Below are positions 33,201 to 62,119 of a DNA stretch of 64,000 nucleotides, one piece after another. Source of the DNA: Antedon mediterranea. Lineage: Eukaryota; Echinodermata; Crinoidea; Comatulida; Antedonidae. Location of the stretch: positions 5,242,312 to 5,306,311 of the forward strand of contig NC_092675.1 of NCBI RefSeq assembly GCF_964355755.1, written 5' to 3'. Positions within the stretch are counted from its first letter, which is position 1. Every line of letters begins with the position of its first letter. A program made the position numbers and the translations under genes. Under the pieces are notes generated by a model. The model did no database searches. It worked only from the letters and a program-made list of their open reading frames with translations, and was not told where the DNA came from.

Positions 33201-34196
33201 TTGCCGCCCTCTGTATCATGTAGAATTAATGTCTCCTTTTATACACAGTGTACTGTATAATTATAATAGGCTACAAGGCGAAAATACAGGACCACCTCTT
33301 ATTATAGTTTTTAACGTATGACGTGCACGTGGCATCTGTCGTGCGGATAACTAACTCGTCAAAGTGACGAGTTTCATGTCTAGTTATTAATTGTATGCTG
33401 CCCTCTATAGTAACATTAAGTTTGGTAGTCTCTTTTTCTGTCAGTTGTAATTGGAAAATGAATCTAAATTTTTTCAAAATGTTTTTATATTATAGTTACA
33501 AATATAATGTATAAGTAATGAAAGTTATTTTATATATTTGTTTTTTTATTTCTCATTTGATGTGTTTCTCAATTGCGTGTAGATCTCAATTAAAGATGGA
33601 TGATATGAAAGAAACGGTGACAGCCTTAGATAAACGGGTGTGGACAAGCGATAAAGACTCCCTCTCTTGTATGTTGTGTGAAAAACAGTTTTCTGTTGCT
33701 CGTCGTAAAGTAAGTATTTTTTCACTTTTATTTTTTATTCAATTCAATAACATCTATATGTAACATCTCGTGGCCAAAGGCTAGTTACAAATTACATTAA
33801 AATGGTACCTATTAAAATTAAACATGCACAGAGACACTAAAATGTAAAAAAATAGACTGAATAAAAAAATGAATCTGGGAAATTATTTGTATTTTAGTTG
33901 CAACAGATCGTTACATTTGTACATTTCTATTCACATTTCTATACTAGGTCTTTTTTATGTCATATGGATTAAAGTTTAGAAAATGGATTATACTGGAAGG
34001 CAGTCATAAAAGTGTAGGAAAGTAACATGGAATAAAATTTATTTTGTTACAGCACCATTGTCGAAGCTGTGGAGGAATCTATTGCAATTCTTGTTCAGAT
34101 AACTACATGCCACTGCCATCATCAGCTAAGCCAGTCAGGGTCTGTGACAAGTGCCATACAAATCTACTACAGAGGTACTCAGCATCATCTGCATAA
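15124..34196 (+). CDS. rufy: RUN and FYVE domain protein (RUFY family)
   Basis: RUFY proteins are endosomal and lysosomal adaptors that bind small GTPases through a RUN domain and PI3P through a FYVE finger. Coding exons are 15124-15286 (or 17646-17790), 22175-22357, 23148-23265, 23595-23696, 24715-24912, 25447-25615, 25949-26050, 26263-26379, 27357-27524, 27978-28075, 28661-28747, 29444-29668, 33583-33709 and 34053-34196. Phases agree throughout, giving 666 or 660 aa. In the 660-aa form the RUN domain spans about 50-248 ('[11 protein letters not shown]', '[16 protein letters not shown]', '[10 protein letters not shown]'). A coiled coil spans about 270-595. The FYVE finger uses cysteines 600, 603, 616, 619, 624, 627, 644 and 647, with the RRKHHCR motif at 611-617. 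The N-terminus of the second isoform resembles vertebrate RUFY3, and the FYVE finger is present as in RUFY1/2/4, so the gene may represent the unduplicated ancestor. Confidence 0.93.
17646..17790 (+). CDS. rufy: RUFY alternative first coding exon 1b (RUFY3-type N-terminus)
   Basis: ATG at 17646 encodes 48 residues starting [20 protein letters not shown] and continuing CLRELSDVS. This closely resembles the conserved N-terminus of vertebrate RUFY3 (pattern TIYLC[16 protein letters not shown]). It ends 'GAAACAGATG|GTAGGT' in phase 1, exactly what exon 22175 requires. No in-frame ATG lies upstream and no strong 3' splice site precedes it. It therefore looks like a true first exon with its own promoter in the first intron. 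Confidence 0.85.
18618..18933. mobile_element. PIF/Harbinger-type MITE with TTA target site
   Basis: The 316-bp element is flanked by TTA (18615-18617 and 18934-18936). The left end reads 'CCAGACCTACTAGAGAGTTA' then 'TGCTTTCGTA', and the right end carries 'ATCTGAACATACTC'. These termini match the 1005-bp element at 38636-39640, so this is an internally deleted relative. Open frames inside it are an accident of transposon sequence. It sits in a RUFY intron. Confidence 0.75.
19510..19534. repeat. (ATA)n microsatellite
   Basis: About eight tandem ATA units in a RUFY intron. No further function is visible. Confidence 0.9.
21173..21410. repeat. 47-48 bp minisatellite, five copies
   Basis: Five tandem units begin at 21173, 21221, 21268, 21316 and 21364. 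Each contains 'CCATTGAGATCCAGCCACTG' and 'ATACCCA'. Units differ mainly in 'TATCTCC' versus 'TATCGCC' and 'AAAACATT' versus 'ACAGCATT'. Because 48 is a multiple of three, the minus strand shows a spurious repetitive open frame. It lies in a RUFY intron. Confidence 0.95.
24417..24492 (-). repeat. SINE family B, tRNA-like head only
   Basis: On the minus strand the sequence reads 'GTGGAGCTGTAGCTTGGTGG' and then 'TTAACGTGCTTGCC', followed by a B-box-like 'CAGGTTTTAATCCC'. It matches the head of the complete copy at 63043-63262 and has diverged from it. No body is attached. Confidence 0.6.
25280..25486 (+). repeat. Triplicated splice-acceptor/exon-start segment
   Basis: Three diverged copies of one motif lie at about 25280-25328, 25343-25391 and 25437-25486. 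Each has a pyrimidine tract, CAG, a GATGG/GACGG-like core and 'CATCCC(T/A)GA(G/A)TTCA' or a close variant. Only the third copy is the true start of RUFY exon 25447-25615. Copy 1 used as an acceptor would hit a stop after ten codons. Copy 2 stays open further but then stops before the real exon. They look like decayed tandem duplicates of the exon start. Confidence 0.6.
26394..26578. repeat. Foldback MITE family 1, two-armed copy
   Basis: The left arm holds 'GTTTGACAACAAAATGTGAT' and 'GTGCCCATATATGGACATG'. The right arm holds 'TTTGGGCACATCACAC' and 'GTGATAGTGTAGACAGAGCC'. The AT-rich centre ('AAATAAAATAAATAAAT') differs from other copies. It is intronic in RUFY. Confidence 0.7.
27074..27260 (+). 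mobile_element. SINE family A, tRNA-like head with body
   Basis: The head has 'TGGTCTAATGGTTAGGAC' (A box) and 'GTGTTCGAATCTC' (B box). The anticodon stem TCTGC/GCAGA encloses the loop ATATCAA, giving AUC, which is not a normal animal anticodon. The head resembles Glu/Asp tRNAs. The body contains 'CATCGCCGGGCGGATTA' and 'CTATGCCTATTGTGT', and this body recurs without the head at 37578-37682. The unusual anticodon and shared body favour a SINE over a tRNA gene. Confidence 0.7.
27538..27615. repeat. Pogo-type MITE fragment (left end)
   Basis: 'CAGTAAACTCTCCCAATACA' and 'GAATGCGTTTTTATTG' match the left part of the element at 11951-12136. The right terminus is not present. It lies just after a RUFY exon. 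Confidence 0.55.
29702..29750 (-). repeat. SINE family B, tail only
   Basis: The minus strand reads 'GAGGGTCCCTAATGATCAGC' and then 'TGGATGGACCACCCTC'. This matches the 3' body of the complete copy at 63043-63262. It is a headless fragment in a RUFY intron, next to the exon ending at 29668. Confidence 0.6.
30170..31831 (+). mobile_element. Helitron-like non-autonomous element, copy A
   Basis: A non-coding element of about 1.5-1.7 kb. The 3' end has a perfect 9-bp hairpin (AACTCGTCA-AAG-TGACGAGTT, 31801-31821), six bases, then CTAG at 31828-31831 followed by T. Hairpin plus CTRR next to T is the Helitron 3' signature. The body contains 'ACGCGCGCACGCGCG' and several TGACGTCA-like words. The homology with copy B begins near 30310. 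The preceding 140 bases hold two tandem 'AGTTATCCGCTT' foldbacks that may belong to the 5' end. It lies in the 3.9-kb RUFY intron. Confidence 0.6.
31832..33383 (+). mobile_element. Helitron-like non-autonomous element, copy B (tandem)
   Basis: This copy begins directly after the CTAG of copy A, with TTCTTCTTTCCTTCC, and follows copy A's order over its whole 1552 bp. It ends with the same hairpin (33353-33373) and CTAG at 33380-33383. The two copies have diverged clearly by point changes and small indels. No Rep/helicase ORF is present in either. The segment could also be read as a local tandem duplication. Confidence 0.6.
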
Positions 34197-41370: not shown

Positions 41371-44300
41371 ATGTTTCTGGATCTTTTAAAAGGATTTATT
41401 TGTCTTGGTGTGGTTCTTGTCCAAGTGATGGCTGGTAAGTGATACGGGTATATTTTGTCCATTATAGCATACCAATGAGAAAGTTGTTGTGCAACCTGCA
41501 GCTACTAACTCCTCTGCAACTAAACGAGCAATCCGTCAGTCATGGTTCCCTCATTTAAGAAAATGCGCGGTAATCAAGTTATTGTTGATTTAGTGTGAAT
41601 TAATTATCTCGACATGAAATCAAGATTCACAATCTGGATGCATTTTATTGTACAGTATAATATTAGTTTGCAATGTTTTCATATGATATGAAATGTATTG
41701 AATTGGATTATGACTGGTATGGGATCGAGACCTGGAAACTGTCAATTTTATCTTCATGTCTTTGTTTGCAAACTTACAAAGTGTGTAAGTGCACTCAGCT
41801 CTTTACTTTACAACTCGATTGGTCACCCTAGTAAACATACCAATTACTTCAGTATTCATTTCAAGATGATACCAAACATCTTCATTCCGTCAATCAGTAT
41901 TATCAATGGGATTTCTTCCATTCAAATACCATATGGGTACTACTCATACATTTTAAGCATTTTACGCCAGGAATTTCTCTTGTCGATAGCTTATTTTCAA
42001 GTTTTGGTACTTTGACACAAACACATTCTCTTGTGAACCGGTCCTTAACTTACCGTGTAGCCTATATTTTGTTACAAATGTCGTTGATAAATTGTGTTTT
42101 TACCACAGGCCTAATGACTCTTTGTTGGTGGTACAGGATTTAGGTAGAATTTATTTGGAAAGAACTTGAGGTGTTTACTTTTAAATGTTTACTCGACTGG
42201 CCACAGGTGAACTTTTCGCCTCGTTGAGAGCCGTTTAAACGCCTACGTACCAATCCTAATCTTTATTGAATATGTTTTAATAGCACATCACTATAAAGCG
42301 TACAATAAATAATCGAAATCAGACATTGTATAATATTATTATCAACTAAGATTTATAAAAGAATGTTAATTGAAAATAAATCTCTTAATGACAATCATAT
42401 AAAAAGTAGGACTTTATAGATGTAAAAAAGTAGATTTGGCCTGAACTGCCACAACATGGAATTATTTTGTGCGGTAGAGCAGTGTAGATTCTTTAAACAC
42501 ATAATGGTAACCTATATATACATTTTTATAAAAGAACACACCTCATTCGAATACTGAAAATACCTACAGATTAAGAACAAATTAAGATGATTTAAAGGAA
42601 CATGCACAAATAAGAAAAACCAATTTTTTGGGACTGAAACTCGTAAAATAGAAATGATATGTAACAGCTGAACAAAATGAACGATTTTGTTATAAAAATC
42701 ATTCTTTTCCCATATCACATTTCTCATTAATGTTTATTGAATTTGCGTAGGTATTTAAAAATAACTGTATATTATATGTATATTGATCAAATATTGTTTA
42801 TTTTAAATAGAATTAGGCCTATCCTTAGCCCATTTCTAATATATTTTACAGCTGTGTATGCGGCACCAACGAGTAAAGAAGAATCCATACTACCACACAT
42901 TCCACGCAGTACAGAAAGAATTCGAGAGGGGTTACAAAATGACCCTTCACTCGTTGATCAGATCCCTCGAGTACAAAGCTCCGCATACCCTCCAATCGTC
43001 TTTCCTATGGACGAAGATGAAGAGGGGAAACTTGTTAAGAGAGGGTGCTGTGAACGGACAAGACACGTAGTAGAAGCTGGTTATGGTAGGTCATCTTACA
43101 AAATGTCGTACGAAAAAAAAAAATTACAAGCTTTTTCCCGAAGAACGAAATTTAAAAATATTAATTGTTCAGATTTATAAGAAATATAAGATTTACGATA
43201 TGATGAGCGGTGATGTTGATGTAGTTATATAATACAAAGGATTTTTTATCAATAAATAATAAATACACATTCAACACACTTCGTGTTTAAATGATAATTA
43301 ATTTCTTAAATAATAATTTGAAGTATAGTATATCCTGCAGCTTTTCCTTGCAACGCCAATGTATTGTGCAGGCATGTTTAGAATTACAATTACGAGGGGG
43401 AAATTATTGGTTTTTAAACATATTTTAGTATAATAGGTATGCTTTCATTTTATTCGGTATAGGCCTAGGCCCGACTTGATAGCATCATTCTACTAGAGAA
43501 ATAAGTTTAGTTTTAACATACCGAATTTAAGGTGATTAAATAGACAAAGGGTTGTATCTAATTAGTTAAGATCGATTATTTAAATTATTTAAATAAGAGA
43601 CAAAACACCTCAATTTGAATACAATAACGACACATCCACGTAACTAGGGCTACCTAAATACAAAAAACATAGCTAGTTTAGGCTAATACGAAGGGACTCA
43701 TACTGTATGCGAATTATTGCCTCCTTATCATCATATACATATCATAATAATCCACATCAGATTAAAGGCATGAGTTCTCAATATTGTTGTTGATACATTT
43801 TCACAGCTGCCGTACACCTGACAAAATAATGTATTTTTATCCCCTTGAAATTTGGTTGTAGACATTAAAGCTACAGAAATACTAGGCCTAGACAAATTTT
43901 GTCAATTTTTTTGCATTTAAAGCCATACATACAAATATCACATACAAACTGACCATAAACCTATTAAATATTAATACAAATAATAAAAAAACAAACTATT
44001 ATTATCTATTTCATAGACAATTCTCTTTTTCAAAACTGTGTATAAAATAATTAAAAATAAATTTTATTTTAAGTTAACTTATCAATTAATTTCAGATGAC
44101 AGGAGACGACGTATAGGTATTGATGTTGGAAAATGTCGAAAAGTATCAAAAAATTCCGATGAACGAAATCGTTTGCTACCGGAAGAAAAACATCAGGTAA
44201 TTTTATTTTTAATACTGTATAGGCCTAATAATATAAGTGGAAGATATCTTTACAAAAAACTGTTTCATTAAGAAAAGGTCTTTGGATGGCCGGTGGCGTT

Positions 44301-47300
44301 TCTGCATTTATAAAATCCTAAACATTATGATATTGTTTTTCACTTTTCACTACCAAACAAACTTTTAAATCAAGGTCAGTTTTACTTTATCGAATTTAAT
44401 AGTCATCTAATATCTAATTGCTTCCTTCATTGTGCTAACAATACTCGTGTAATAGTATTAACGTGTGTTTCGGAATATAAAGTTAATTTAAACGTCGTAT
44501 TTTGTAAACTAATACTGCTACTTTTGTAAAATAAAAAGTATGAGTAATTTATATTATAGAAAAAATTATTATTCTTGTAATTTGTATTTTTTGAATATAT
44601 TTATGATTAAAATCTCTATATTCAATGAAAATTAACTTAAACTTTAAATACAACATATAAACACTGTCTACGACCAACGGTGTTTATTCACCGGAGACGG
44701 CCTCCTACGGCTCGATTTTCTGTAAATCTCGTCTACATCTAAGCTAATAATACGAAGTGTGGTGTATGCTAAAAAAGTTCCGCAAACTATAGTAAAAAAA
44801 AATTGTCTAATGTAGGCATTCGTCAGCTGGCCCAACATGTAATCTTTAAAACATTATAACATTCTTCCTTTTTTTATAGACTTTCATGTTTCGAGACAAT
44901 ATTTCAGAAATTCTATAACTTTAATTGAATAATCTTAATTAGTTTCGTAATGGGATGATGCAGTTTAATCGAAATTTTGAACTTTGGGAGCCATTTTGCC
45001 ACCATAGTTTGGTTAACAATTTGTCTACACTTCAAATCAAACTTTATGTAATGTGCCCATAGCCTATATATGGACATGATGATATCATATCACTAACATT
45101 TTTATTTATTTCGGCACATCACACTTTTTTGTCACATCAAGTGTGATAGCTGTGTAGACAGAACTTAAGATACATCACTAGCTTAGTATAGTAGACAGGC
45201 TTACCAAACCAGCCCTTGCGCCGTCGCCGCGAAATAAATATCGTTTGATCCTACAGTGTTGATCAGTTATACTTAATTTTATCTTGGCTAGTTTAATTTA
45301 ACCTGATTGAAAAATGTAACAATACCTTTAAATAAAGATACTTAAAAATGATTATCCTGCTATTTTATCTTATTTAACACTTCATGGAAAGTTATTCAGT
45401 TGGATTACAGATTGAAAAAGGATCTAAATGCTTTCTATTATACCAAAGTTAACATTGTGGCATTAGCCGACATACGTCTCGAGGTTTTTTATTTCTATAG
45501 TCGAATGCGGGTGAAGTCCAATTGTCCATTTGTCCAAATTGCCTTCTCGTTGTCCACATCGATTTAATAGCGCGAATATCTGCCGCCTTGCTACTTCCAT
45601 CACTGACGCCAACTAAAAAGTTTTCTTGTACGTGGTGGCGCTCTTTAATAACAGAAAATGCTGTCATTGATTTATTTGATTTCTGTTAACGGTTAACAAA
45701 AATAAAACCGCAATATGAATTCGTTATCAATTGCATTAAACTTTGCTATACACTACATGTGAAAAGAAGTTTTTTTTAAATAGCTTGCGTTTGACTTCTG
45801 TCAAGAGAATCTAAAAAAATGTGAAAATGCAAAAATATTCAGACATAAAATTAAGTTTAATTTGTAAACATTTTTATTTTGTTTTATGTTTTGTTGGGTC
45901 TTTTTGAGACAGGCCTTGGCCTCTAAGTCGGATTCTAATCAATGATATCTGTATTTGTTTATATTGTTTACATTGTTTAAGTTTTAATTAATTGAATAAA
46001 TATGAAATGAAAATGAAATGAAAAGTTAGTCTGTACAAAATTACAATAAACTGAATAATTAAAATAGAACAATCAATATATAAATACTTAATCGTTTATG
46101 AAAATACCAGGGTTCACTCTTCACTGAAAATACCAGGGTTCACTCTTCACTGAAAATACCAGGGTTCACTCTTCACTGAAAATACCAGGGTTCACTCGTC
46201 ACTGAAAATACCAGGGTTCACTCTTCACTGAAAATACCAGGGTTCACTCTTCACTGAAAATACCAGGGTTCACTCTTCACTGAAAATACCAGGGTTCACT
46301 CTTCACTGAAAATACCAGGGTTCACTCTTCACTGAAAATACCAGGGTTCACTCTTCACTGAAAATACCAGGGTTCACTCTTCACTGAAAATACCAATGCT
46401 TTATTTTAATAATGAATTCTATTCCAAAAATTTTAAAATTAAAACTATATACACTACTTTTTTTATAATACACTGTTTTTAACTGTGGTGCTTCTAATTA
46501 GGAGACAATGTCAAATCAAAGTTTTATATTAGAGACTCTTAGAGTCTCTCTTTTTAAAAACTAAACAATGTTACAATAGCAATTTGCCGTTAATATTGTG
46601 AAGACAAAAATATTATTTCGGTGAAAAATAAGTATAATAATTTAACTTGTATTGCATGATTAGTGTTTGTTTTTATAACTTTTTCTTGTACTTTAGCAAA
46701 TACATGTTAATAAATTCCATGTTAATGAAAAAGCAAACTAGTTTCATTGACACATCATATCACTTCAGTGTATTTAAACACCTTTCAAGATACCTATTCA
46801 TGTTATATTAATGGTATTCATCAATTCTCTTATTTGACAAACTCGCAAACGTGCACCTGCAGTCCACTGAGCACCTTTGACTGACTGATACCGTAACAAA
46901 ACATGTATTGTAAGTGAAGAAAATTAGGTAAACCCTGGCATTCTTCTACATAGTAAATAATTCGTTGCAGGTGAGTCAATAATAAGTGTGAAAAGATGAA
47001 GAACAATTGTCGGTATGGGATGGGAACTATAAGCCGTAATTGTTGCTAAGCCATTAAATAATACTAATGAATCGCTATAGACGAAGCAGACAATAGGCAA
47101 CATACCGTCACTTTTGTTTTGAAACCCAGCTAAACAAACGTTGTGAAAAGAATGAGGCCACCTGCAAAACGTATGGAAACTCTAAACAAGTGCTTGTTCG
47201 TAGAAATTGGCCTGTCGATTATCATCATTATTATTGACGCTAACTTGCCTGCCATGAATGAAAACTAACAAATGAAAATGTGTGAACTATTTTAAAACGG

Positions 47301-50300
47301 GATAGATGATAATGATGATCCTGTCAAGTGTATAACAAAATATACGAAAATTAATGAAAAAAGGAGTAATACAGAATTCATATATGTAAAAATGTTACTT
47401 ATGAACTGTAACGACATTTACAAGTTAAATAATACGATTTTATGTAATATGAGATAATATGAATGTGAATAAAAGTGGTGTTTGCGCCACAAAAGAGAAA
47501 AAAAAAACTTGCCTGCCATGATCTTAAATAACAACATCATATGCTGCTTGTATCGGTGTAAAATGCTGCTTGTATTGGTGTAAAATATCTCTTACATTCA
47601 ATGAAATTAACATCACTCAATTTAAAATTATCTTTAATTACTTTTAAAAAAATCTGTAAAACGTTTACCTATTAGCCATTTAAACAACTTATTTTTGTTG
47701 TGCTCAATATTTTATCTCTTTCGTTTTTTGACTTATTTTATTGTGTATTGTATAGTATTTATTTTTATGTATTTTGCCTATTTATATTGTAGGAGGCCTC
47801 ATGAGACAAGCTATTGCTTCTAGTGCGGGCCCCAGTTGTTGTCAAATAACTGAATAAATGTGTATGAATGAATAGATGCCATCTCCCTGACGAAAACATA
47901 GGTATAGGCTAAAGGGATACTGTGTGTGTATTTTTAAAGTTTATTCAGTACCTATAAACAGCAATAAGTATTAAACTCTTTCACATATGCTTTATCGTAC
48001 GGAGCCTATACTACTCACTACGTTCGTTGAAGCTGTATTACTTAATCGATTTTTAATCGAGAGGTGATTTATGTTACTTAACAATTATTTAAGAAATAAT
48101 GCTAAAGTGCTTATACAAGTGCAAAAATGTGGGCGAAATATTTCAAGTTTAAATGTTAAGAGACTTTTAATAAATCCAAAACAGCTACATAATTCTGATT
48201 TCTTTATTGTCTTTTGTTTTCGTATTTGATGGAGTAGTTAACGGAGCCAAAATATTAGCAGGCATTTAGAGATGTACTTAGAAGCATTGTTCTAAAGATC
48301 AATGACATATCTTCCAATTGTTTTAAAAAATATCCATACTATTTCAGGTCAATGTACAATAAGCTATGAAATATTGGAATTCGTGAAGTTTTGTTTAGGA
48401 TTAAGAAAACCTAGATTTTATAAAGCTTTTCGTAGTGATTACTTACTGATTTCTTTCCAATATTGTTGATAAATTAATGTTTGTTTTTCTAAAGTTAAAA
48501 TGCCTATTCCCAGGAACATCATATTAATTTAGACGGCTTTTATTGAGTTTTGTGACAGAAAACAATAATTCTGGAAAAAAAAACACACGAGAATGGGATT
48601 GTAAAGTGAGTGAATGAATCCAAATGACTGGGTTCAAATCTTATTGATCATTGTAGCTGTATTTTGATCTGAATTTATCATATTATTTATTTATATTTCA
48701 GTGTATGCAATGCCCTGAGACAAGCGAGTGCGTTGCTTCGGAAATACGTGTACAACGCGTTTACCTCGTGGGAGAACCACAAGTATTTGACGTCGTTCAG
48801 GATTGCGAGTGCGTGCACACGCCACCATCGTGCGAACGTAAATCGCAAATAAAGATGTTTTTTGCGGACACACCTTACGAAACGGAGGTAGATGTCGGAA
48901 TGTGTGCTGGTACTTGTTCTGATGGTATGTTCATACAAAAAACATTCATGGCTTCATAATTCATCGTTAAAATAAAAAGAATTCGCATATACGTCATCAT
49001 CATCATCTTATCATCATCATTATCATCATATATTACTCACAGCGGGATATGTCTATCCTATCTTTATCACGAATAATTTATGTTCATCATAAAACGAAAG
49101 CTTTAATTAGCTGAAAAAATGAGAATAATACTACGTTCATCATCATTTCATCATAACAACACGGCCTTAATGTGACGTTTAGTTACTTACAATAGTATTT
49201 TATAGATATTCACTTTTATTATCCATATTATTATTATGACAACTTGTAAAGTTAAATATTATGAATTTTGGTTTTGTATCAGTTTAATAGTTTTATCGCA
49301 TGGTTCAAAATCTTACATTTATGAAGAATATTGTATGAAAATCACATATTATTATGATTTTGGTGAAAATAAGAACACAATGTGTCATGATCTGGCCTAA
49401 AAGAAGGAGCATGAGATATTCAGATAAAAGTATTAATCCCCTTCGCCTGCCGCCGTACGTATGTCACCACTTGAAAAAGTTTCCTATGACGTACCACACC
49501 ATCTGGTTTTTGCTGCTTCGTGGAACTAACTTTAAACTCGTTCAACTTTCGCCACTTGATGTGAATAGCTTTGCTAATTACTAAAGAAGTAGCTGATCTG
49601 TTAAAAAGAGTTTTTAAGAACCATCTAAATTACCTTTAATTAACATGTTTATAAATTTAAATTATTTATTCGTGGTGTGAAATGTTTACGCCATGAATAA
49701 GAATTTCCAGTAAATATTGCTTTTGAAAATACTGAAATCTGAAAATTAATTTGATTTACTCGTATAAAGAATTTAAACTGTCAATTAAATTAATTTATTC
49801 TTCAAAATTTTCAAATTGGCAACCATCCAATTCAAGGAAATTAATTGGTAACATCTTATATTTTTTGTTCGACTCTTTGTATTAAAGATTAATAAGGTAT
49901 CGATAATTTATCTAACGGTACAATAAGTGTTGTTACATTTTATGGAAGTGTATCTTTGAATATTTTGAATCTAGGCCTAGACTATGCAATTTCTGATAAT
50001 ATACAGTAGGCCTAGATGATTATATGATCGAGTAAGCGCCGCACCCGAATAGGCCTACTTCACTCCTCTGCAATCGATGCGAAATAGCCCAGGCCTATAT
50101 ATTCGAGTGAAGACAATTAATTATAGTGCTGGTTATTAAATATCACTCAGATACATTATTCATTACTAATTATTATTTTATTTCTGTTACCATTCTGAAT
50201 GTTTACAGTATACTAATTCAATATTTGCTTGTTATCATTTTAAGACAATACTTATACAATTTGTTTATTTATATAGGCGATGGACTTGAATGTAAAAGTA

Positions 50301-51983
50301 CTGAAAATCGCACTGTTACAATTGAGGGACCTAACGGTATGATGACATATTTTTGTAATGTTCTATTTACTATTAATAAATTAATAATTATCCATAATAT
50401 TAACTTATCATTATGAATCAGACTGACATTATGCTAACAATATGTCAATATAAAACATTAATGTTGTTTATTTTTACTTTGAATTATGTTTGCATAATAC
50501 AGGTGCATTTTGTGTTGACGTCATTGAAGCTTGTAAATGTCAACATTCATGTTACCGCGCGACGCATCGAGAGGTTTACTACGAAGTGATATTCAACACG
50601 ACGTCGAATTCAACGCAAACAGTAATAAAGGTGAGATTTTGACCTAGTTTAATGAGCCAATGGTGATCGATAATAGTTAATAATAAATGAATTGTCAACA
50701 TTAGCTTAGATATTGTAACTTTTCTTTATTATATATAGATATATTACAAGGGTACCGTACCCCCGTGAGGGGCATCTAAATGTGGAATAAATAAAAATAT
50801 AATATAAAAAAATATAATTCTTATATATAGTTATTGTATTAAATATGTATTAGGCCTATGTATAAATATATATTTGTGTTTTTTGTTTGTTTGTTTTTTT
50901 TGGTTATTTGTTTGTGCTTACGGCTATCGAATTCTGAAGTGTAGGCTACAGCATTGTTAAACTTTAACACACGGAACACAAAAGTCTCTCAAAGAAATAT
51001 CGTAGTTCATTTATATCGGTAGATAACGTTTGATTCTTATGAATTCCTTCATTCATAACTGTTTTCGAGTTATATTCCATTAAAGTATGGGACTCTACAA
51101 CCACCTACCACCCTTCCGCCTTATGGTCTTATGATTCGAGCTGATGACGTAAGTGGTGCACTGAACGCGTGCCAGGACATTATCATTTCAACCACAAACA
51201 TACCTCGGAATTAAAGTACAAAAACGCACACATTGCGTGGGCCCAAGTCAAGTCCTAATGATTTCCATTTTATAATCGAAGTTCAGCAGATGTAACTTTT
51301 CTTATTCGTTTCGTCACTGATAACCTCCTTTCTGCTGAAAAAGTCAGAGGCGTTAATGTGTTATCAGTAATGCAACTTTTATATGAACAAAAGCGTGGGC
51401 CTAAGCTAAGTTTTAAAATGATGTGGGTGCCTAACATTTCCTTTTACTGATTACATTTATATTCGAGGAATTATAACTAATCCACTGCAGAAATAGAACT
51501 TTGCTGTAAAGAAGTTAGGCTACGCCAAGACATTTTGAAATACCTCTTAAACTTAATGTCCTCGCTGTCCTTAATGGCTTCGTAAATTGTATCCATCAAT
51601 ATCATTCATTTTCATGTTTTGTTATGATTTTTTTTTAGGAAATGGATATTGGAAAATGCATAGGAACATGTTCACAGGATGCTTCGTTACAGTGTATTCT
51701 GAGGTATTGTGGGCCTAATGCTAAATATTAATTAATTCATAATTCATATTCAAATTCACATTGGTTAATTATATTATTTATATTAATATATATATTAATT
51801 TTTATTGATATTAATGTTCAATATTTGTAATTTATTAACAGGTCTCCGAGTAATCCTGATGAATGTTTAATGTCGTTAACAAAGAAAACAAACTGCAGTC
51901 CACAGTCGTATCACCAACACAACTTTCAAACAACAGGAAACCGAAGACAAACTGTATTAACTATTAGAGATTGTGGATGCTAG
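41371..51983 (+). CDS. pnhd: Pinhead: secreted protein with three cystine-knot-like modules
   Basis: Pinhead is a secreted protein that acts on dorsoventral patterning and antagonises the BMP ligand Admp in chordates. Exons are 41371-41434, 42852-43085, 44096-44196, 48702-48924, 50277-50336, 50503-50630, 51639-51703 and 51842-51983. All splice phases agree, giving 338 aa. Residues 1-25 are a signal peptide. A propeptide follows, ending KLVKR (81-85), and the mature part has 23 cysteines. Three modules each run from an opening cysteine (CCERT 87-91, SCERK 176-180, SCYRA 243-247) through D(V/I)G(K/M)C (113, 201, 277) to a closing CxC (168/170, 238/240, 336/338). Modules 2 and 3 have a full CxGxC (CAGTC 201-205, CIGTC 277-281); module 1 has CRKVS instead. 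N-glycosylation sequons occur at 218 and in module 3. The identification rests on architecture plus adjacency to admp. A generic CTCK-type protein is the alternative. Confidence 0.85.
45022..45170. repeat. Foldback MITE family 1, diverged copy
   Basis: 'TGTCTACACTTCAAATCAAA' and 'TAATGTGCCCATA' form one arm. 'GGCACATCACACTTTTTTG' and 'GTGTGATAGCTGTGTAGACA' form the other. It lies in pinhead intron 3. Confidence 0.65.
45897..46022 (+). repeat. Possible non-LTR retrotransposon 3' end
   Basis: 'GAGACAGGCCTTGGCCTCTA' is followed by a T-rich stretch and a (GAAAT)n-like A-rich tail ending at about 46022. Structured 3' ends with such tails are usual for LINEs and SINEs. No second copy was found in the window, so support is weak. 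Confidence 0.35.
46100..46395. repeat. 26-bp minisatellite, about 11.4 copies
   Basis: Eleven full units plus a partial of 'GAAAATACCAGGGTTCACTC' plus 'TTCACT'. Units are almost identical; one changes CTCTTCACT to CTCGTCACT. The near identity suggests recent expansion and probable length polymorphism. It lies in pinhead intron 3. Confidence 0.97.
47242..47521 (+). mobile_element. Short LINE insertion (3'UTR only) with 16-bp target-site duplication
   Basis: AACTTGCCTGCCATGA occurs at 47242-47257 and again at 47506-47521, immediately after a poly-A tail. The 248 bases between them match the 3'UTR of the LINE at 600-2050, with two substitutions seen. This is an extremely 5'-truncated copy that carries no ORF sequence. 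It lies in pinhead intron 3. Confidence 0.9.
47775..47880 (+). repeat. Possible non-LTR retrotransposon 3' end
   Basis: 'GGAGGCCTCATGAGACAAGC' and 'GGGCCCCAGTTGTTGTC' are followed by 'AATAAATGTGTATGAATGAAT', a tail-like end. No other copy is visible here, so this is a weak call. Confidence 0.3.
48991..49031. repeat. (ATC)n microsatellite
   Basis: An imperfect run of ATC/CAT units just after pinhead exon 4. Confidence 0.8.
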
Positions 51984-52012
51984 AGACAATACAAATACAA
52001 CAGAGCTATACA

Positions 52013-52018
52013 AATAAA
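52013..52018 (+). terminator. Candidate polyadenylation signal of pinhead
   Basis: AATAAA lies 30 bases after the pinhead stop codon. It is well placed if the 3'UTR is short; further AATAAA words (near 52162) are alternatives. Confidence 0.45.
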
Positions 52019-53398
52019 ACATATTCGAGAAGGGGATATTTTATCTAAAAAAAAACCGTTTTTACATCGTACTCTAATAACGGCTTCCATTATTTGCAAC
52101 TTTAGATTTTGATGAGTGTGGCTGTGACGTCAGTTAGTAAGCAGTTTAAAACAGCCAAGGAATAAAAGTTACTATTACTGCGATTTTCATTATACTGTAT
52201 TATGATTATGAATTAAATTATCTATTATTTATTCCAAAATGAATTTTTATTAAAGCAATCCGACACAATATTTTCAGATAAGTCAAAAGGGTAAAAGCTA
52301 TGATATATAAGTACACACCCCTGCTTTTTAAATTACTGTACATTATTTTGTACGAAATTTTCTGCGTTTTACACAATATCATTAGTTTGAATAACAAATA
52401 GGAAAGAATACAATTGTATGAGATTTGTTTTTCTATTGATCATAAGAAAAAAGTGTATGCAAGTCTTATCAATTATGTATATAGTGTTTTGTTATCACTT
52501 AGAAGTTACAATATTATAGCAATGGCCTGTATATTGTTTGTAGATAAACATTTTACGAAATTTGGTAATATATCCTTGAGTTAGTATAGTATAGGCATAT
52601 TAAAGTTAGATGTTTATGCCTTTATTTTAAAATCACCAGCGATTAAATGTAATTGTAAAATCTTCCAGAAAAGTGGATAGCCCAATAATTTACTAAAGAT
52701 AAACTGGGTATATGGTTGTTATCGGGATGTTTGGCGGGCTGATCTTATGACGTAGGCCGATGCAGAGTATTACAGCAAGCTGGGCAAACTTAAAGAGTAC
52801 CTCCTGATTTATAATTTCTAAAACATCTATAGTTAGATATATTTTATAATAGATTTTAAAACCCTAGGCTACCCTTTAAATTTGTAGCTTCAAAACATCA
52901 GTAGCTGCTGTCCATTCAGTCTTACAAATAATTTTACCTAATACGGACCTGATTGCGATGTTGTTTTAAATGTATTGCATACGTAGCCTAGCCAACACTG
53001 TTAAGTACAGTATGATTTTGTTAAGAAGTCGAATTAGTTTTTAATTCTTATATTCAGAGAAAACTATCTAATACTTTTATATATTTTTCTACTGAAAGAA
53101 AGTGTTGAAAGATAACATTGATTTTGTACAAAAATAGTATCTGTATTGCAGCCCTAAGGACACCCTTACACACGCGAACGTCAGTTTTTATATTTAACTA
53201 CACTAAGCTAAATTCAGTAGGGACTTGTATTCGATGAAAGAAGTTTGTCCAGTTACGCTTAACTGTTTGTGAATATAGGCTAATTACTTTCGACTTGAGG
53301 GAACATTTATGTGAATAATGTAAATATATTGATGTATTAAAAAAAATTTATTTTGTTTTTATGTTATTTCGTCAGTGAAAACACATATGCCTACATAC

Positions 53399-53553
53399 AA
53401 CGAACGTTCTTTTTTTATGCACAGGATCATACTATGAATGTATTTTATTAATGCTGATTTAGGTTATTTTATTTATTGCTTTGATTTTTTTTTTATTGTG
53501 AATATGATTGTAAATACACTACTCAATTCTGTGCATAAAACGAACGTTCTTGG
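53399..53553. repeat. Short inverted repeat with GAACGTTC cores
   Basis: 'AACGAACGTTCTTT' near 53399, followed by 'TTATGCACAG', pairs with 'CTGTGCATAAAACGAACGTT' at 53528-53547. The arms are about 25 bases with an insertless AT-rich centre. It may be a small foldback element or a regulatory inverted repeat. Confidence 0.5.
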
Positions 53554-55258
53554 TCAAAAAGATATAATATAATAAGGTATAATTTTAGCTTAAAACACAG
53601 CAATTTTTCTTTGATTATTCAACCATAAAACAATCATAGTCTTGCTCATTCCGATCATAACAAAAAGGGAAAAAAACACGAATAACACGAATATTGTTTA
53701 AAAACATATTTAAAATATCGTGTCCTTATATGGTATGATCTATACAACATATTCCAGGTCAGGCACAAAAGAACCACACTTATAATATTTATAGCGACAA
53801 CTACATCGTCCTTGCAAACGATCCCTCTTGAAACTCCAGAAACAAAATCTTCTTCGTCGTTTATAAATTACACAACATAAAGGTCTGTTAAACCGCGTCT
53901 CTAAATTGCTTTTAACATTGTTTAATTCTACACAATTTTCATGATATATTTTCTTTAAAATAACGGTACCAATTTTTTTAATCAATGGTATAATATACGC
54001 ATACCAATAATACAACTCTAGCGATGTTATTGTTTATTTAATTATAATACAATGTGTCCGGTTCCACTTGTTTGTTTACCGCAAAGTGTGGTTTTTCCAT
54101 TCATAATGAATACAGAATATATTTAGTTTTTACTTTGTTTTAATGACTTGCTCAGATCTAAATCCGCACCGAACCTGAATACAAGTACATATAAGTGGTG
54201 AGATAATGTGTTTCATCTTACTGGGAATAAAATTAAGTGATTGTATTATAGCTGAAGCACAATTTTAATCCATGGAAGAGTGGATACAATGTTGATTCTT
54301 GACCTAATAACTCTAATCGAACAACAGGAGAATTTAAAATTCGATTTTAATCTAAAGCAATAGTTTACATAGTTTTCTATACAGGACAATTTATAATATT
54401 TTCAGAAAGAACTCAAAACAATAAATGTAAGTTTGAAGGACACAGAAAAAGACGCAAAAAGAAAAGGTAGGCTATACTTTAATCTATTCAATTAATCCTA
54501 ATAACTAGGCCTACAATTTAACTCAAGCTGCAGATGCAACAGGAAAATTACGTTATGTGTTACTTCCATATATTAATATAGAAGAGAATTCCTTGCCCGA
54601 TGTGGTTTTAAAATGTTATACCAGTCACCGCTGAAACATACTGGTTATGATTCTGGACATCATGCACCATTTATACTTAACAAAATAATTGTAGAGATTG
54701 CATCATCTACTTTACAGTAAATTGTTATAGTATTACTTTATAGTTAACATGGCATGCAACCCTTTGACGGATGTTTTTACCTTTATGCCATTTATTTTCA
54801 TGATTAAACTTGTTTGAATAAATTAATAATAATTCAAAAACAACCATCAATGATATGTGGCCCTTTGTCCTAATTATGAGGTCATCTAGGACATGGAATA
54901 CGCCATTACACAATAGCATGACCTCATTTTTAAATTATTTCATAACCCTTAGTGGATAATCAATTATTATTTTCTGTAATTATGAAACGGAACTTATTAA
55001 TTTACACATGTTAGTTAAATCATTTTGTATCAAAACAAATTATTGTCTAGCTTAGAGGAGCAATAATTGGAGAATGATTCATATTTTCTGGTATGTTTAC
55101 ACAATTTCACAGATGACAATGCAAACAATAGTGTTGACGGCAATGTATCCTGTTTACACTTAACTCGGGTGAAATGATCATAACAAACAATCTCAATAGT
55201 TCTTAATACATATTTTGAAATATTGATTTCTATTTTTGAAATGAAAATATTGCAATAT

Positions 55259-55394
55259 AAAGCTCTACTATCAAACTTTATGTGACAAAAAATGTGCCCA
55301 TAGATATCATGATGTCATTTCAATACCATATTTAAGCATATCACTACCACATTTTTTTTGTAAAACTAGTTTGATAGTGTAGACAGAGGTTTCA
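55259..55394. repeat. Foldback MITE family 1, copy between pinhead and admp
   Basis: The left arm is 'AAGCTCTACTATCAAACTTT' with 'AATGTGCCCATAGATATCAT'. The right arm is 'AACTAGTTTGATAGTGTAGA' with 'CAGAGG'. It lies about 3 kb upstream of the admp start. Confidence 0.7.
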
Positions 55395-58365
55395 AGTTCA
55401 ATTTTCTATATGGAATTTTATTTTTTCTACTCAACAAAACTTCGCAGTCTTCCGATGAGCGCTATCACTTTTACACACGATTTCAAAAAATGATCATTCC
55501 CCTCGTGGCCAAATAAACTCCATAGCAACTATGTTTGGTTCAATTTACAAGCGTCGCACCACACCTGTCACAAATAACATAGCACAAATTTAGTTTTTTA
55601 ATAAAATGGGTGGTTACCTCAAGTAAATTATTTATAACATTAACAAAATATGAATAACATTGTACAGAACTTCACTTTTAATCTACGTAATCTTCCTTAT
55701 ACGAATAAATACAAAGGTGGTTTTTTTCAATATTTTATTATTCATAGGTTAGAAACATGTTTTTTAAATCTGACTGAAACTGACTAACACTTCGGATGCA
55801 TAAGGAGATACAATAATATACTTTTCTGCACGTATTTTCTTTGAATATTTTAGTTGTATATTACCTATAGGTATTGATGATGTCACATACCATATGGTTG
55901 CATCGGTCTCTAATAATAAACCAATGTATGATTTATAAGAAGTTCAAAGGGGAATAAACCGCTGCTGACACGTGCCACAATATCTAATGTTTAAAGTAAA
56001 CTTCTTATACGGGCGGATTAAATTTAAATGAATCATTAGGTCTTTCTTTCCCGATCTCCCCCAGCGGCCCCATTCACCTGGAATTTTGTCATAGGGAGCC
56101 ATGTATTCCTACAATACAATAAATAATTATTGTATGTAAACACGATAAGCTGTGCATCATGTTTAATCCCTGCCTTTTAAACATCCAATTGAGTTTATAA
56201 TGTACAGTACTTATTTTAATCTGGTTAAGTAAACATTCGTATTACACTGAATACTGTATAGAATGACTTTGTAGCCTATGAAACATTGTCAAGGGCGGAA
56301 TTTCGGACTCAACGGCACATCAGCAAATTCGACTGTCGATTATTGGTCGGTCAGTATTCCTTTTTACGACACATTTTAACAAACGCGCATTAAAACGCCT
56401 GATAAATAATTGGCACAGTTCTTTTTTACGCGTGTTTTAACTGTGCCTAAATGTTTGATGCGTTCTCTATGAAATGTGTCAGATTTGTTGATTGGTTAAT
56501 TAAATACAACATAAATGAACACATTGACTATCGTATTGGCCTCTTTCGTAGATTATTATTGCCAGGGCCGCTTTATAACAGTATGGAATAGTAAGTTCTG
56601 TTATGTCATGAGTGCAATAATAAAGAAGCTAAGAAAGCACCCTGTCTGTTTGTGTGTGTGAATAGACATTTCTTAATTGAAGCGAACAGTGAAGAGGGCT
56701 AAGTTTCACCTGTTTCTATTGTTGTTCAACTGATTGTCAATAACGTATGCCAGGTGTGAATTGTTGGTTTTTATTGTTGTGTCCTTTTATTTTGGCACGT
56801 TCTTCCAGTTATAACTGTTGGAAACTGAAGTGAGTGTTTAGTATATTTAACAGATTGGTTCTATTCAACCACTAGGGCCTACACCTGTGAGATTGTATCG
56901 TGCTTTTTCCCACACTAGTTTCTAAAAAACTGCAGTGTATTGAAAGTCTAATGAAAAAAGTAAAGAGTTCACTAATTGGAAGTATTATCTGTCTATATTA
57001 GCTATGTAAACCTAAAGTGTCGTAAATATGTTTTAGGCATATGCAAATAGTAAAACATAACGTGTGTTGTTGTCGTTTGATGTATTTTGTCAACAATCTA
57101 TTCCAGCCAAACGTAGTGCGTTTATTACAAACAGTATTTACGTTTGCTAGTGTTTATCGTATGGTTTCCGGACAAATTTTAATGTAAAGCAAGTTTAATT
57201 TTAAATTGAAAACAACATGATTGGCAGTATTTTATTTTTGATTGACACACACGATTCATTGATTTAAATCTAGGATGTAATTGAATCGCCAACTGTTTTA
57301 AATGAAATCAGAAAAAAAAAAGATTTATAGGCCTAAACAAAAGTGTTTATTTCCTTTATATACTTGTTAATCAAGATTAATCATTCACTTGTTCATGTTA
57401 GATAAATATCCATAGAGAGAGAACGACTGTATACACAATAAAATAAATGTGTCAGACTAAATATAAAATTAATAATTGACTTTTACACTCTATAACAATG
57501 ATATTGATTGTTCTTGAGAGAGAAAAACAGAGAGTGTGAGAGGAAAGTCGATAAAGGAAAAGAAGACAATACAGCTTGCCTTTGTTAATTGATAATAATA
57601 ATTAACCATCATTATACATTCAATAGTATAACCGAGCCAAATATTCTCTTCATAAACAAAATAAATATGATTTATTATGAGTTATTTATTTGGGTCAACT
57701 AATTTAAAATGACAGGAATCGTGTAATTTAAAAAGTTTTACAATATATATACTCCATTCTAATTCCTTTCAAGTTTTTCGGAACCGTTCCCTGAATTTAA
57801 AAAAGCTAATTAAGAGGTGTGAATGCCTTTGTGCGTGAGTTTACTTCCAACACCTTGTGCAAAGGCTAACTAACAATTAACATGAATGTTCATAGGCCCG
57901 GTAATCCGCTGATTTAGAATGACAGCAAGCTGATATTTGTATTACTGTCGCACTAAACCAAAGAATGAAGTAAATTTAATCAATCTCATCTTTATCGTTC
58001 ATGAATTTTAAGGGCGATTACAACTTTATTCTGGTGATCGTGGATGGACTGGAGAGACAAAAGAAAACGTGATCTCTTAAGTGGATTTCGCTGTCCTTAA
58101 GGGCTGTTGAGATCATGAGCACCCATCTAGCTCAGGTATTGGTTCGTCCGGAGGTAAGAGGACAAGCTGAGCGTCAATCACAGGTGTGAACTGGTCCGTA
58201 ACATCCTTTGAAATTACAAACACCCGACTTTGATTGCCAAACTTTCCATCGACCCTCGTCCTGACAACACGTGTTTTAACAGCAAGCTTCACTAGATACA
58301 AAATCGCGTAAAACTGTTCTGATTTTTTCTTTCACTGGAAACCGATACGATAAAAAACATTTTCC

Positions 58366-61300
58366 ATGATGTCAGTATACTATTTACTTTTCGTGGTTGT
58401 AATCATCTTCCATTCTTGTACGGGAAAACCAACGCCACTATCACCAACGATATCGGATGTGGAGGACTTAAATACACTACCTGAATCGGAAGAAGTTCGT
58501 ACGAAAGCGTTGGACCAGTTACGCAACGTTTTCGGTTTTACCAACAAGTCGCATTTTTCACCGGCAAAGGATCATTCTCCGCCTCAATATATGATGGATC
58601 TATACAATACTATCGCGCATTCTGGCGGAATTACTAATATACCAAATCCGTATTACTCAAGTACTGTACGTTCATTCCTGGACAAATGTAAGTCATATAT
58701 TTATAGATGTTCCCACAGTTGATTAGAACTGATCAAGTCAGTTGTCGAGCTTTGCTTGAAAACTGACTATATCCATGTTACCACATCCAAACTCATTTTT
58801 TGCGATTGTGGAAACCATAATTTAATTGTTTTTACATTCAATAATTTTTCATTTCAGCCTAATCATTCGGTCATTTAACAGATTGTTACGTATGAGTCAG
58901 AGATTCATAGAAATCAGAATGTTAAATTATGAAACATCTGTTTTCAACCTCTTCATCTGTCTTTAACCCACAAATAGTCAAACTCGACCAATCAGAGTTG
59001 ACTTTGGGTCTAGCAATAACAAAAATCAAACGATTTTACAAGTAGGCCTTATGGCAGTTGTTGCTGAATATTTTTTAATTTATTTATTTTTTTAAAGTTC
59101 CAAGGTACTTTAGATAATTAAAACCTCTTCTGCCTCTATAAATAATTTAATTAGTGCATTTAAAAAACGGACATACCGTCACTTTACTTGGAAATTGTTC
59201 ACTTTTACCTTTAGAAAATAGATTGAGGTGATTAAGCATAAATGTTCATTGTAAAGAAACATGTTAGGCTTGCATATGCGATATTAAGGAGTTTTTATTA
59301 CTTTGTGCTCGCTTTAATCGCTGTTTCTCCTGTAAAACCCCCAGTCATTATGCCATATCGCAATACCCGTTCGAATCTTCCGCCAAGGTCTCCTCATACA
59401 ATGCATAATCGTCTAAAGCTATTATAACAATTCCCGATATAATATAGGAAATATATTTAAATTCAATCAATTTCTTTAAAGGCAGGGTCAAGAGGGTAAT
59501 CAGTCTGGGAATATGTGGTATGGGATTATGCCTACATTTACTAGTCCATCTGTTCATATAGCAACAATGAATATAAAAATATTTCAGAAATAGAATCGGT
59601 TGCATTGGAACAAAAGCTGACGTCACATTTAGATGCTCTGTATTTTTTGCAGGATAGGCATTATAAATTTAAAAAAGAATTACAAAAAGCAAAACATACT
59701 TTGACAATAAAATTCACTTTCTAGTGATCACCATTCGATTTTGGAACCTTGTGTTTGGTTATTAGTATTTTCGAACGAAATAAATCATTTTTCATCTTCT
59801 TTTTTATCTGTGCATCTTTATCTATCGGATACATTGTTACCTAAGTTTAAAAAGAAAGAGATGTATTATTTATTGAATTGGACCCACGACACTATTTTGG
59901 TAGATAAAAGCAATACAGTTATATATACTTTATTTTATATATGTAATCCTTTTATTTCAACAGCCCACAGACAAAGAATGCTGTATAGTTTCAACTTAAC
60001 CAAGGTACCAAACACGGACAGAATACTTCGAGCTGAATTACATCTATTCAAAATGAAGCCAAAAGTTAAACATGATAATAGACGACAACACTATTACCAG
60101 GTAAAGTTACTAATAATCAACTTTTTCTATTTGTTTACATTAAGATTCATTTCTGTCAAACCATTGTTGTTAACAATATTGAAATACTAATTTTGTATTA
60201 ATTAAATAACAGTATCAGTTTGCAATCTTCGTGGTATCTTTGGTATTCATTCAAATTAATGTATTTAGTCGCACCCGATAGATTCAGACAAAGGCTTGAT
60301 TTCGTCATTCCTAACGATACAATTCTATATTTAAACTGATTAGGAGAAATGGAATTTAATTAATAGCATAAATAACACAACAAATATATAAATTTAAAAA
60401 TTATCCAAGGCCACTGTGGTACCTTGTAATTCTAAAAATATTAAAATGTTAAGTCCACATCAATCGTCAAAGATTTCGTTTCTCAGCGCTGACGCATTGG
60501 AAATATAGCTCAGTAAAGTCAAGGTTAATATATCTAAGAGGAGTTACCATTTCTGATTGGTTAAATGTTTTGAAAGTTAAGGAACAAATTTGGTAATAAC
60601 CCCTCCTGTGCCCAGGCTGTAAGTTTTCTAACCTGTTCGAATTAAGGGATCTGTCAGACGCGCCACCATCTTTCAACAACTGCGATAAGATCGTTTCAAC
60701 TTTGTTATGTTTGAGCCAATGATCTTCTGCGGAAAACCAGTTTCAGTGTTTATCGACACGAACTAGGGATAAGGGTTTCCGCCTAACTTACCTAAACGGA
60801 TTTTTTATCATTGAAAAATGACATAATCAGAAATAATACACATATGTAGGTCGTTAGAATTTTAGAAGAAAACAGACATCTCCTCATTTTAACTTCCATG
60901 TGGTTTTGATTCTATTTTTTTTCCTGGAAATAATGTATAGCGAAAAATGTATTTTCTGTCCATCGACGAATGTGTATCAACGTCTCTAGATATTCATAGT
61001 TCCATATATTACTTTGTCAATTAAAAAATATGTATAATTAATTAATAATTATTTAACTTATTATTTACTCTTCAGGTTCATCTTTATAAAGTAAAAACGG
61101 ACAACCCGTTATCAGTAGAGGGCGCTGAATTGATTGGTATACGGCTTATCAGTGTGCAGAGAACCGGTTGGGAAGTGTTTGCCGTCACAGATGTTGTCAA
61201 TAGTTGGATAGCCAATTCCACAACAAACCTAGGATTTCTCATGACGGTGACGAATCTAAACGGAGAAGTGATGGACGACAGCAACGTACGTTTTGCTCAG

Positions 61301-62119
61301 CGTGGAAAACATCATGATTCCAAACAGCCAAACTTGGTTTTGTTTAGCGACGACGGTAGACAAAAACCAGCATTACCAAAAACAATAACGAAAGTTGGTA
61401 CGTGCTTGTTTGATCCACAAACTTAAAATAAATCATATTTGTTTTAATTACAATATTCATGCATGTAACATTATGGAATGTCACAGTGTATTTCATAAGA
61501 TGAACACAAGAACATTAAATGTTTATCGACATAGGCATTGAAAAAATGAATATCAATTAAATAAAAAATACTAAATAATATAATATTAGTAATAACGATA
61601 AAAATTAATTGATCCATTTTAACTCTTTCAGATCCCGATAGTGCATATGATTATATAATTGAGACGTACGGCGATAATAAAGAGGAAACAAAAACAGGTT
61701 TTAAACATGTCATGAAGAGGGACACACAAACAAACTCAACAGAACACGCAAATACAGGTGAAAACCAGTACCGAACAAACACACGTCGTAGCCAACGAAC
61801 TGGTCCCTGTGCATTACAACCAATGTACGTCGATTTTCAGACGATCGGTTGGTCAGACTGGATCATTTCCCCAGATGGTTACAACGCAAACCAGTGCTCT
61901 GGGAAGTGCACATTTCCCCTAACGAATCTTGTAAACCCCAGTAATCATGCATCGGTACAAAGCCTAATAAACACTTTAAATCTAGACGAGACAGTTGGGC
62001 AACCTTGTTGTGTACCGGATAAAACAGAACACATCACATTACTTTACTATACAGATGATGATAACGTCGTTTTAAAGCACTTTGAAGGCATGATCGCTAC
62101 AAGTTGCGGTTGCCATTAG
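58366..62119 (+). CDS. admp: Admp-like BMP-family ligand (TGF-beta superfamily)
   Basis: Admp (anti-dorsalizing morphogenetic protein) is a secreted BMP-type ligand in dorsoventral patterning. Exons are 58366-58687, 59964-60100, 61076-61397 and 61632-62119. Phases agree, giving 422 aa. Residues 1-20 are a signal peptide (YYLLFVVVIIFHSCTG). The prodomain has 'TVRSF' near the first exon end and 'ILRAELHLFK' in exon 2. The cleavage motif RSQR ends at 316, leaving a 106-aa mature ligand with seven cysteines: 'GPC', 'QCSGKC', 'PCC' and C-terminal 'CGCH'. 'YVDFQTIGWSDWIISPDGYN' is the finger-1 signature of the BMP group. Another BMP-group identity (Vg1/univin-like or BMP5-8) is possible from the ligand alone. 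The adjacent pinhead gene and the SCGCH ending favour Admp. An AATAAA at 62751 may end the transcript. Confidence 0.85.

Follow-up and report, generated by a model that had tools for sequence, protein, structure and literature searches.

Does a crinoid carry the linked Pinhead-Admp gene pair known from other animals, and would the two genes act on one another there? The question is raised by a locus in the window, by which we mean the whole stretch of 64,000 nucleotides of Antedon mediterranea DNA analysed here. In the 2012 Ciona work of Imai, Pinhead is said to antagonise Admp, with Pinhead transcription interfering in cis, and the tandem pair is reported there to be present from arthropods to vertebrates; the 2021 Xenopus work of Itoh reportedly also points to Pinhead antagonism. 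The pairing itself is already known in other animals, and what is new here is the crinoid member. Pinhead is also named as a regulator of Admp in the available text of a review (PMC11226491).

We consider it probable that the locus holds a Pinhead-Admp pair, that is, a ligand and its regulator from the dorsoventral BMP circuit. As in the Ciona pair and in those from arthropods to vertebrates, a secreted cystine-knot-like gene adjoins an Admp-type gene on the same strand across a short spacer. In contrast to the Ciona pair, the present one lies in a crinoid, is known from sequence alone, and has its Pinhead recognized by architecture and linkage.

Both gene models are predictions read from the DNA. 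They place the two genes head to tail on the + strand, with GT-AG borders at all 10 introns. The Pinhead-like gene (41371-51983, +) has 8 exons encoding 338 aa in frame, and 7 of the 10 introns belong to it; the Admp gene (58366-62119, +) has 4 exons encoding 422 aa, with GT-AG at 3/3 introns. The spacer between them (51984-58365) measures 6382 bp, in agreement with the 6.4 kb given in the preliminary description, whose coordinates, sizes and strand were also correct for both coding structures.

The rest of the window holds several features of its own. Upstream of the pair lies a gene that we take to be RUFY-like (22162-33763, +). The end of a RUN domain falls in its open reading frame 24653-24955 and exceeds the cut-off at 28.3 bits; there may also be a coiled coil, and at 33515-33763 the start of a FYVE domain is seen below threshold (18.5 bits). 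A tRNA with anticodon ATC, called Asp, is found among the reading frames of this gene (27074-27145, +; 47.1 bits). A zf-RVT domain (36 bits) in the frame 819-1664 (+) is probably a LINE-type remnant, and the translation of a short array at 21161-21477 (-), taken from the list of open reading frames, repeats a unit of about 16 residues.

The Admp-type ligand and its second copy

Exon 1 of the downstream gene (58366-58687, +) holds the start ATG and the predicted signal peptide. According to the gene model and Pfam, exons 2 (59964-60100, +) and 3 (61076-61397, +) encode the propeptide, and exon 4 (61632-62119, +) the RSQR cleavage site (aa 313-316) and the mature ligand, whose 106 aa at 61799-62116 lie within this one exon and are followed by the stop at 62117-62119. 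Pfam recognizes TGFb_propeptide (PF00688, 83.4 bits) and TGF_beta (PF00019, 116.4 bits), both above cut-off. The protein thus has the propeptide, basic cleavage site and C-terminal seven-cysteine domain of the TGF-beta superfamily. A scan of viral contigs with it found no relative.

Antedon has 11 chromosomes, and our genome searches covered a 354-Mb assembly in which 11 contigs measure 22-41 Mb and the other 7 no more than 567 kb. One such search gave 21 matches, equal to 19 domains, of which 12 (L008 and L016 being partial) entered the trees together with three human domains from the PDB. A near copy of a univin-like gene (L006) and six divergent domains (two each in L011 and L013, plus L015 and L018) were kept out. 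Among the genes of this genome, univin-like, nodal-like and BMP3-like are labels that we presume; a gene on C10 was labelled BMP2/4 by its 209 bits to BMP2, and the BMP5-8 label comes from a place beside BMP6 (69/90 in the 15-row tree). In the PDB, the univin-like gene matched GDF5 best, at 150.9 bits (BMP2, 148.5).

In every tree the partner of the window ligand was another Admp-type gene from this genome, located on C4. The support for this pairing is weak once long-branch rows are kept (73/30 in the 15-row tree, where 2/12 inner branches were starred), against 97/95 in a 10-row tree made by removing five rows, namely three long ones, a partial one and a near copy; BMP5-8 was the next group there (81/81). 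Removal of two more rows brought the pair to 98/96 in an 8-row tree. AU tests on the 15-row tree rejected the placement of the window ligand with BMP2/4 (p 0.0111), with BMP5-8 (p 0.0238) and with the univin (Vg1)-like genes (p 0.0103). Moreover, the C4 copy is the closest to the window ligand among the 14 other TGF-beta mature domains compared, with 58/103 identical positions against 50/102 for human BMP6 and 45/101 for BMP2, and seven alignment columns are common to these two copies only, among seven sequences. The propeptide, by contrast, speaks against this pairing, being nearer to BMP2/4: beyond the window it matches that gene best (E 4.7e-6, 30%), and the C4 Admp-type copy follows at E 0.47, ranked under two further paralogues.

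Within the limits of these data, the identification of the window ligand as an Admp is well supported by its sequence. The name draws on exclusion and on the admp pair reported for echinoderms and hemichordates in the available text of PMC4600745, and the Admp grouping that we see is with the second Admp-type gene of the same genome. The Admp features that had been claimed for the ligand are borne out by this grouping and by the AU rejections, and the phylogeny of the 106-aa mature domain, once run, gave no clustering with BMP2/4, BMP5-8 or Vg1.

Two other sets of TGF-beta genes were observed in the genome. Three nearly identical univin/GDF-like genes lie at C10:7305496 (L004), 10 kb from BMP2/4, and at C4:6396448 (L005) and C4:6355929 (L006), about 40 kb apart; L006 has an extra cysteine codon in its CC motif. 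Their near identity reflects either recent duplication or an assembly effect. At C1:17857955-17864705 (L011, L013), four divergent TGF-beta domains are clustered and appear by eye to be two duplicated pairs.

The genome thus has two Admp-type genes, the window copy on C6 and the copy on C4. The presence of two admp genes in echinoderms and hemichordates has been reported (Lapraz et al. 2015, PMC4600745), and the available text of that paper describes sea urchin admp1 as BMP-repressed and ventrally expressed, and admp2 as dorsal and BMP-activated. The two genes found here resemble the ADMP1/ADMP2 of Ambulacraria in their number and in grouping apart from BMP2/4 and BMP5-8. They differ in that a Pinhead-like neighbour is detectable for the C6 copy only, no Pinhead-like match near the C4 gene being among those listed in a genome search with E up to 10, and in that the copies are unlike in structure, an intron inside the mature domain being present in the C4 copy alone. 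The branch of the window copy is the longer one (0.82 vs 0.39 in the 10-row tree), but we do not claim that it evolves faster because relative-rate tests with five outgroups gave p 0.14 to 1.

Since two Admp copies are also reported in xenacoelomorphs (PMC11226491) and likewise in bryozoans (PMC13121700), in the available text of both sources, the Admp pair alone is no proof of an ambulacrarian. The preliminary description had made its reading conditional on an echinoderm or hemichordate genome. This origin is supported by a reading frame on C4 that has a signal-like start and encodes CFWRTCPVG followed by GKR, a vasotocin-type peptide of the crinoid Trp-Arg type. The CFWRTCPVG frame precedes, by about 8.4 kb and on the same strand, a neurophysin-type exon at C4:25455598 (59.4 bits), and we infer that the two belong to one gene. 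According to the available text of PMC9793003, Trp-Arg at positions 3 and 4 of the peptide sets the three crinoids studied apart from other echinoderms. A peptide predicted for Antedon mediterranea was sought in the genome and gave no match; since it is short and published for one species, we do not weigh this against a crinoid origin. A COX1 search, aimed at the mitochondrial code, likewise gave no match.

The upstream cystine-knot-like gene

Exon 1 of the upstream gene (41371-41434, +) holds the start ATG and a predicted signal peptide, a 19-residue stretch from residue 5 with the hydropathy maximum of the protein (2.28, a crude score). No later hydrophobic span was seen, as stretches starting after residue 40 reach at most 0.8 on the same crude score, and hydropathy thus predicts a secreted protein with no other membrane span. 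The sequence also contains four N-glycosylation motifs. Exon 2 (42852-43085, +) encodes a KLVKR basic site and the beginning of a first cysteine-containing unit, A, which continues through exon 3 (44096-44196, +) and ends with CEC at residue 168 in exon 4 (48702-48924, +). Unit B begins in exon 4 (CAGTC, 201), passes through exon 5 (50277-50336, +) and ends in exon 6 (50503-50630, +) with CKC at 238. Unit C begins in exon 6, has its CIGTC ring motif (277) in exon 7 (51639-51703, +) and ends in exon 8 (51842-51983, +) with CGC at 336, then the stop.

Units B and C are two CxGxC knot-like units, and unit A, which has a CxC but no CxGxC, is degenerate; eight columns are invariant over the three. 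B and C resemble each other with a Smith-Waterman score of 64, reached in 0/1000 shuffles. The likeness of A to B is weak (13/1000 shuffles as high), and that of A to C is not significant (175/1000). Two CxGxC motifs were reached in 95/20000 shuffles of residues 84-338 and three CxC motifs in 6279/20000, so that the CxC count alone says little.

The libraries searched gave no family for this protein. In Pfam nothing exceeded the cut-off for the whole protein, the sole entry being Pico_P2A (E 0.31), and when units B and C were each searched alone, B gave hEGF at 0.85 and C no match. NCBIfam, a bacterial and archaeal library, had no match at E up to 1, the PDB none at E up to 10, and the viral contigs scanned held no relative. 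Searched as a profile against the PDB, the three units returned 13 hits, the best of which, to a WD-repeat protein (E 0.075), we read as chance. In the genome, all 8 matches listed for the protein (E up to 10) fall inside this gene; a second copy is not among them. This search scored the best candidates, and parts of the assembly may read N.

The protein shares with the DAN-family BMP antagonists a CxGxC...CxC cystine-knot pattern in a secreted protein, but it differs from them in having several units and no Pfam DAN match. Against seven DAN domains from this genome, hhalign gave a probability of 0.6, and DAN was rejected along with the other Pfam cystine-knot families, none of which matched over the cut-off. 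DAN genes do occur in the genome, with 7 matches that all lie outside the window, three of these DAN-type matches being clustered at C1:39230305-39244807 (L043-L045).

Pinhead is the most likely identity of the 338-aa protein, as judged from its architecture and from its position next to Admp on the same strand. The name is partly circular, because linkage to Admp is itself used as evidence. The preliminary description gave the protein a Pinhead architecture; a signal-like start and two CxGxC units were observed, and a third unit is degenerate. The identity is consistent with the data, short of proof. No other cystine-knot family matched the protein; a better match to one of them would have spoken against Pinhead.

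Proposed regulation and competing readings

How might such a pair work? The Admp-type pro-ligand, whose domains are recognized by Pfam, would leave the cell as a cystine-knot dimer after cleavage at RSQR. The upstream gene would yield a secreted protein, presumably Pinhead, in which two units are clearly cystine-knot-like and a third is degenerate. If the pair behaves as in Ciona and Xenopus, Pinhead would be expected to bind Admp or counter it extracellularly, with complementary transcription domains for the two genes. Their head-to-tail arrangement would aim Pinhead transcription at the Admp promoter, where it could disturb an Admp enhancer situated in the Pinhead introns or in the spacer, our candidate site at 51984-58365. 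However, the sequence does not make it evident that the whole spacer is transcribed, because a probable poly(A) signal, AATAAA (52013-52018, +), lies 30 bp past the Pinhead-like stop, with a second AATAAA at 52161. With a signal so close, a Pinhead intron is as good a site for the enhancer as the spacer.

We scanned the window for two BMP-response motifs, GRCGNCNNNNNGTCTG and GGCGCCNNNNNGTCT. The former has 3 one-mismatch sites (at least 3 were found in 4/100 shuffles), one of them in the third intron of the Pinhead-like gene (45210-45225, -), and none in the spacer; for the latter the scan gave no site. The spacer contains a high-copy interspersed repeat near 55251-55405 and a piece, 53428-53539, for which one other copy was listed. 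The underlying search of the spacer gave at least 45 matches from the 40 candidates scored out of 2189, and further spacer repeats are possible. That the cis-repression module is intact as in Ciona, and that only the Pinhead-adjacent Admp keeps it, the other copy having escaped, is a tentative proposal that we regard as rather unlikely.

Pinhead could also work with Admp, both being BMP-like, promoting Chordin degradation and repressing each other for robustness, a reading that we find possible but doubtful. The Ciona and Xenopus work reportedly points to antagonism instead. Unit C, the last of the 338-aa protein, resembles BMPs in its CxGxC ring and its terminal CGC, which would suit a BMP-like Pinhead. 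However, when the three units were compared by profile with seven TGF-beta domains, the probability was 2.0 over 7 columns, and scores as high as those of the window mature ligand were reached by 21 of its 300 shuffles against unit A, by 140 against unit B and by 134 against unit C; given these weak scores, the sequence offers no support for a BMP-like fold. Cooperation is what the available text of the zebrafish papers describes, with Pinhead BMP-like and promoting Chordin degradation together with Admp, and the two genes repressing each other's expression (PMC8753366, PMC8034876). For the CHRD domain, the present genome has a single match, at 32 bits on C3. It may represent an exon of Chordin; the domain itself is not Chordin-specific.

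Alternatively, the pairing might be a passive relic, an old and unbroken gene order without shared regulation. The absence of both scanned BMP-response motifs from the spacer agrees with this. But the pair reportedly persists from arthropods to vertebrates, which is hard to expect of an unconstrained arrangement, and the C6 copy keeps its neighbour although an Admp with no detected Pinhead-like neighbour is tolerated on C4; we think a relic unlikely. Finally, that the 338-aa gene is some other lineage-specific secreted cystine-knot protein, beside Admp by chance, is quite improbable: no library matched it and the Pinhead name is partly circular, but it has repeated CxGxC...CxC units, no better family match and no second genome match listed, and it sits directly upstream of Admp.

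Meaning for echinoderm axis patterning

We therefore return to the Pinhead-Admp pair as the preferred reading of the locus. Crinoids are sister to the remaining extant echinoderms, according to the available text of PMC11336682, and a Pinhead-like gene linked to Admp in a crinoid would date the pair to the echinoderm ancestor. A description of an echinoderm Pinhead was not found in the open literature naming both Pinhead and Admp, in the text available, and may exist elsewhere. In the sea urchin, the dorsoventral model of the Admp paper comprises Nodal, BMP2/4, two Admps and Chordin, and the word "Pinhead" is absent from the main text of that paper as available (PMC4600745). The two Admp copies of Antedon, one with and one apparently without a Pinhead neighbour, offer a natural comparison. 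In the rather unlikely case that the cis-repression module works here as in Ciona, the ambulacrarian dorsoventral network would have an Admp antagonist that has been left out of sea-urchin models.
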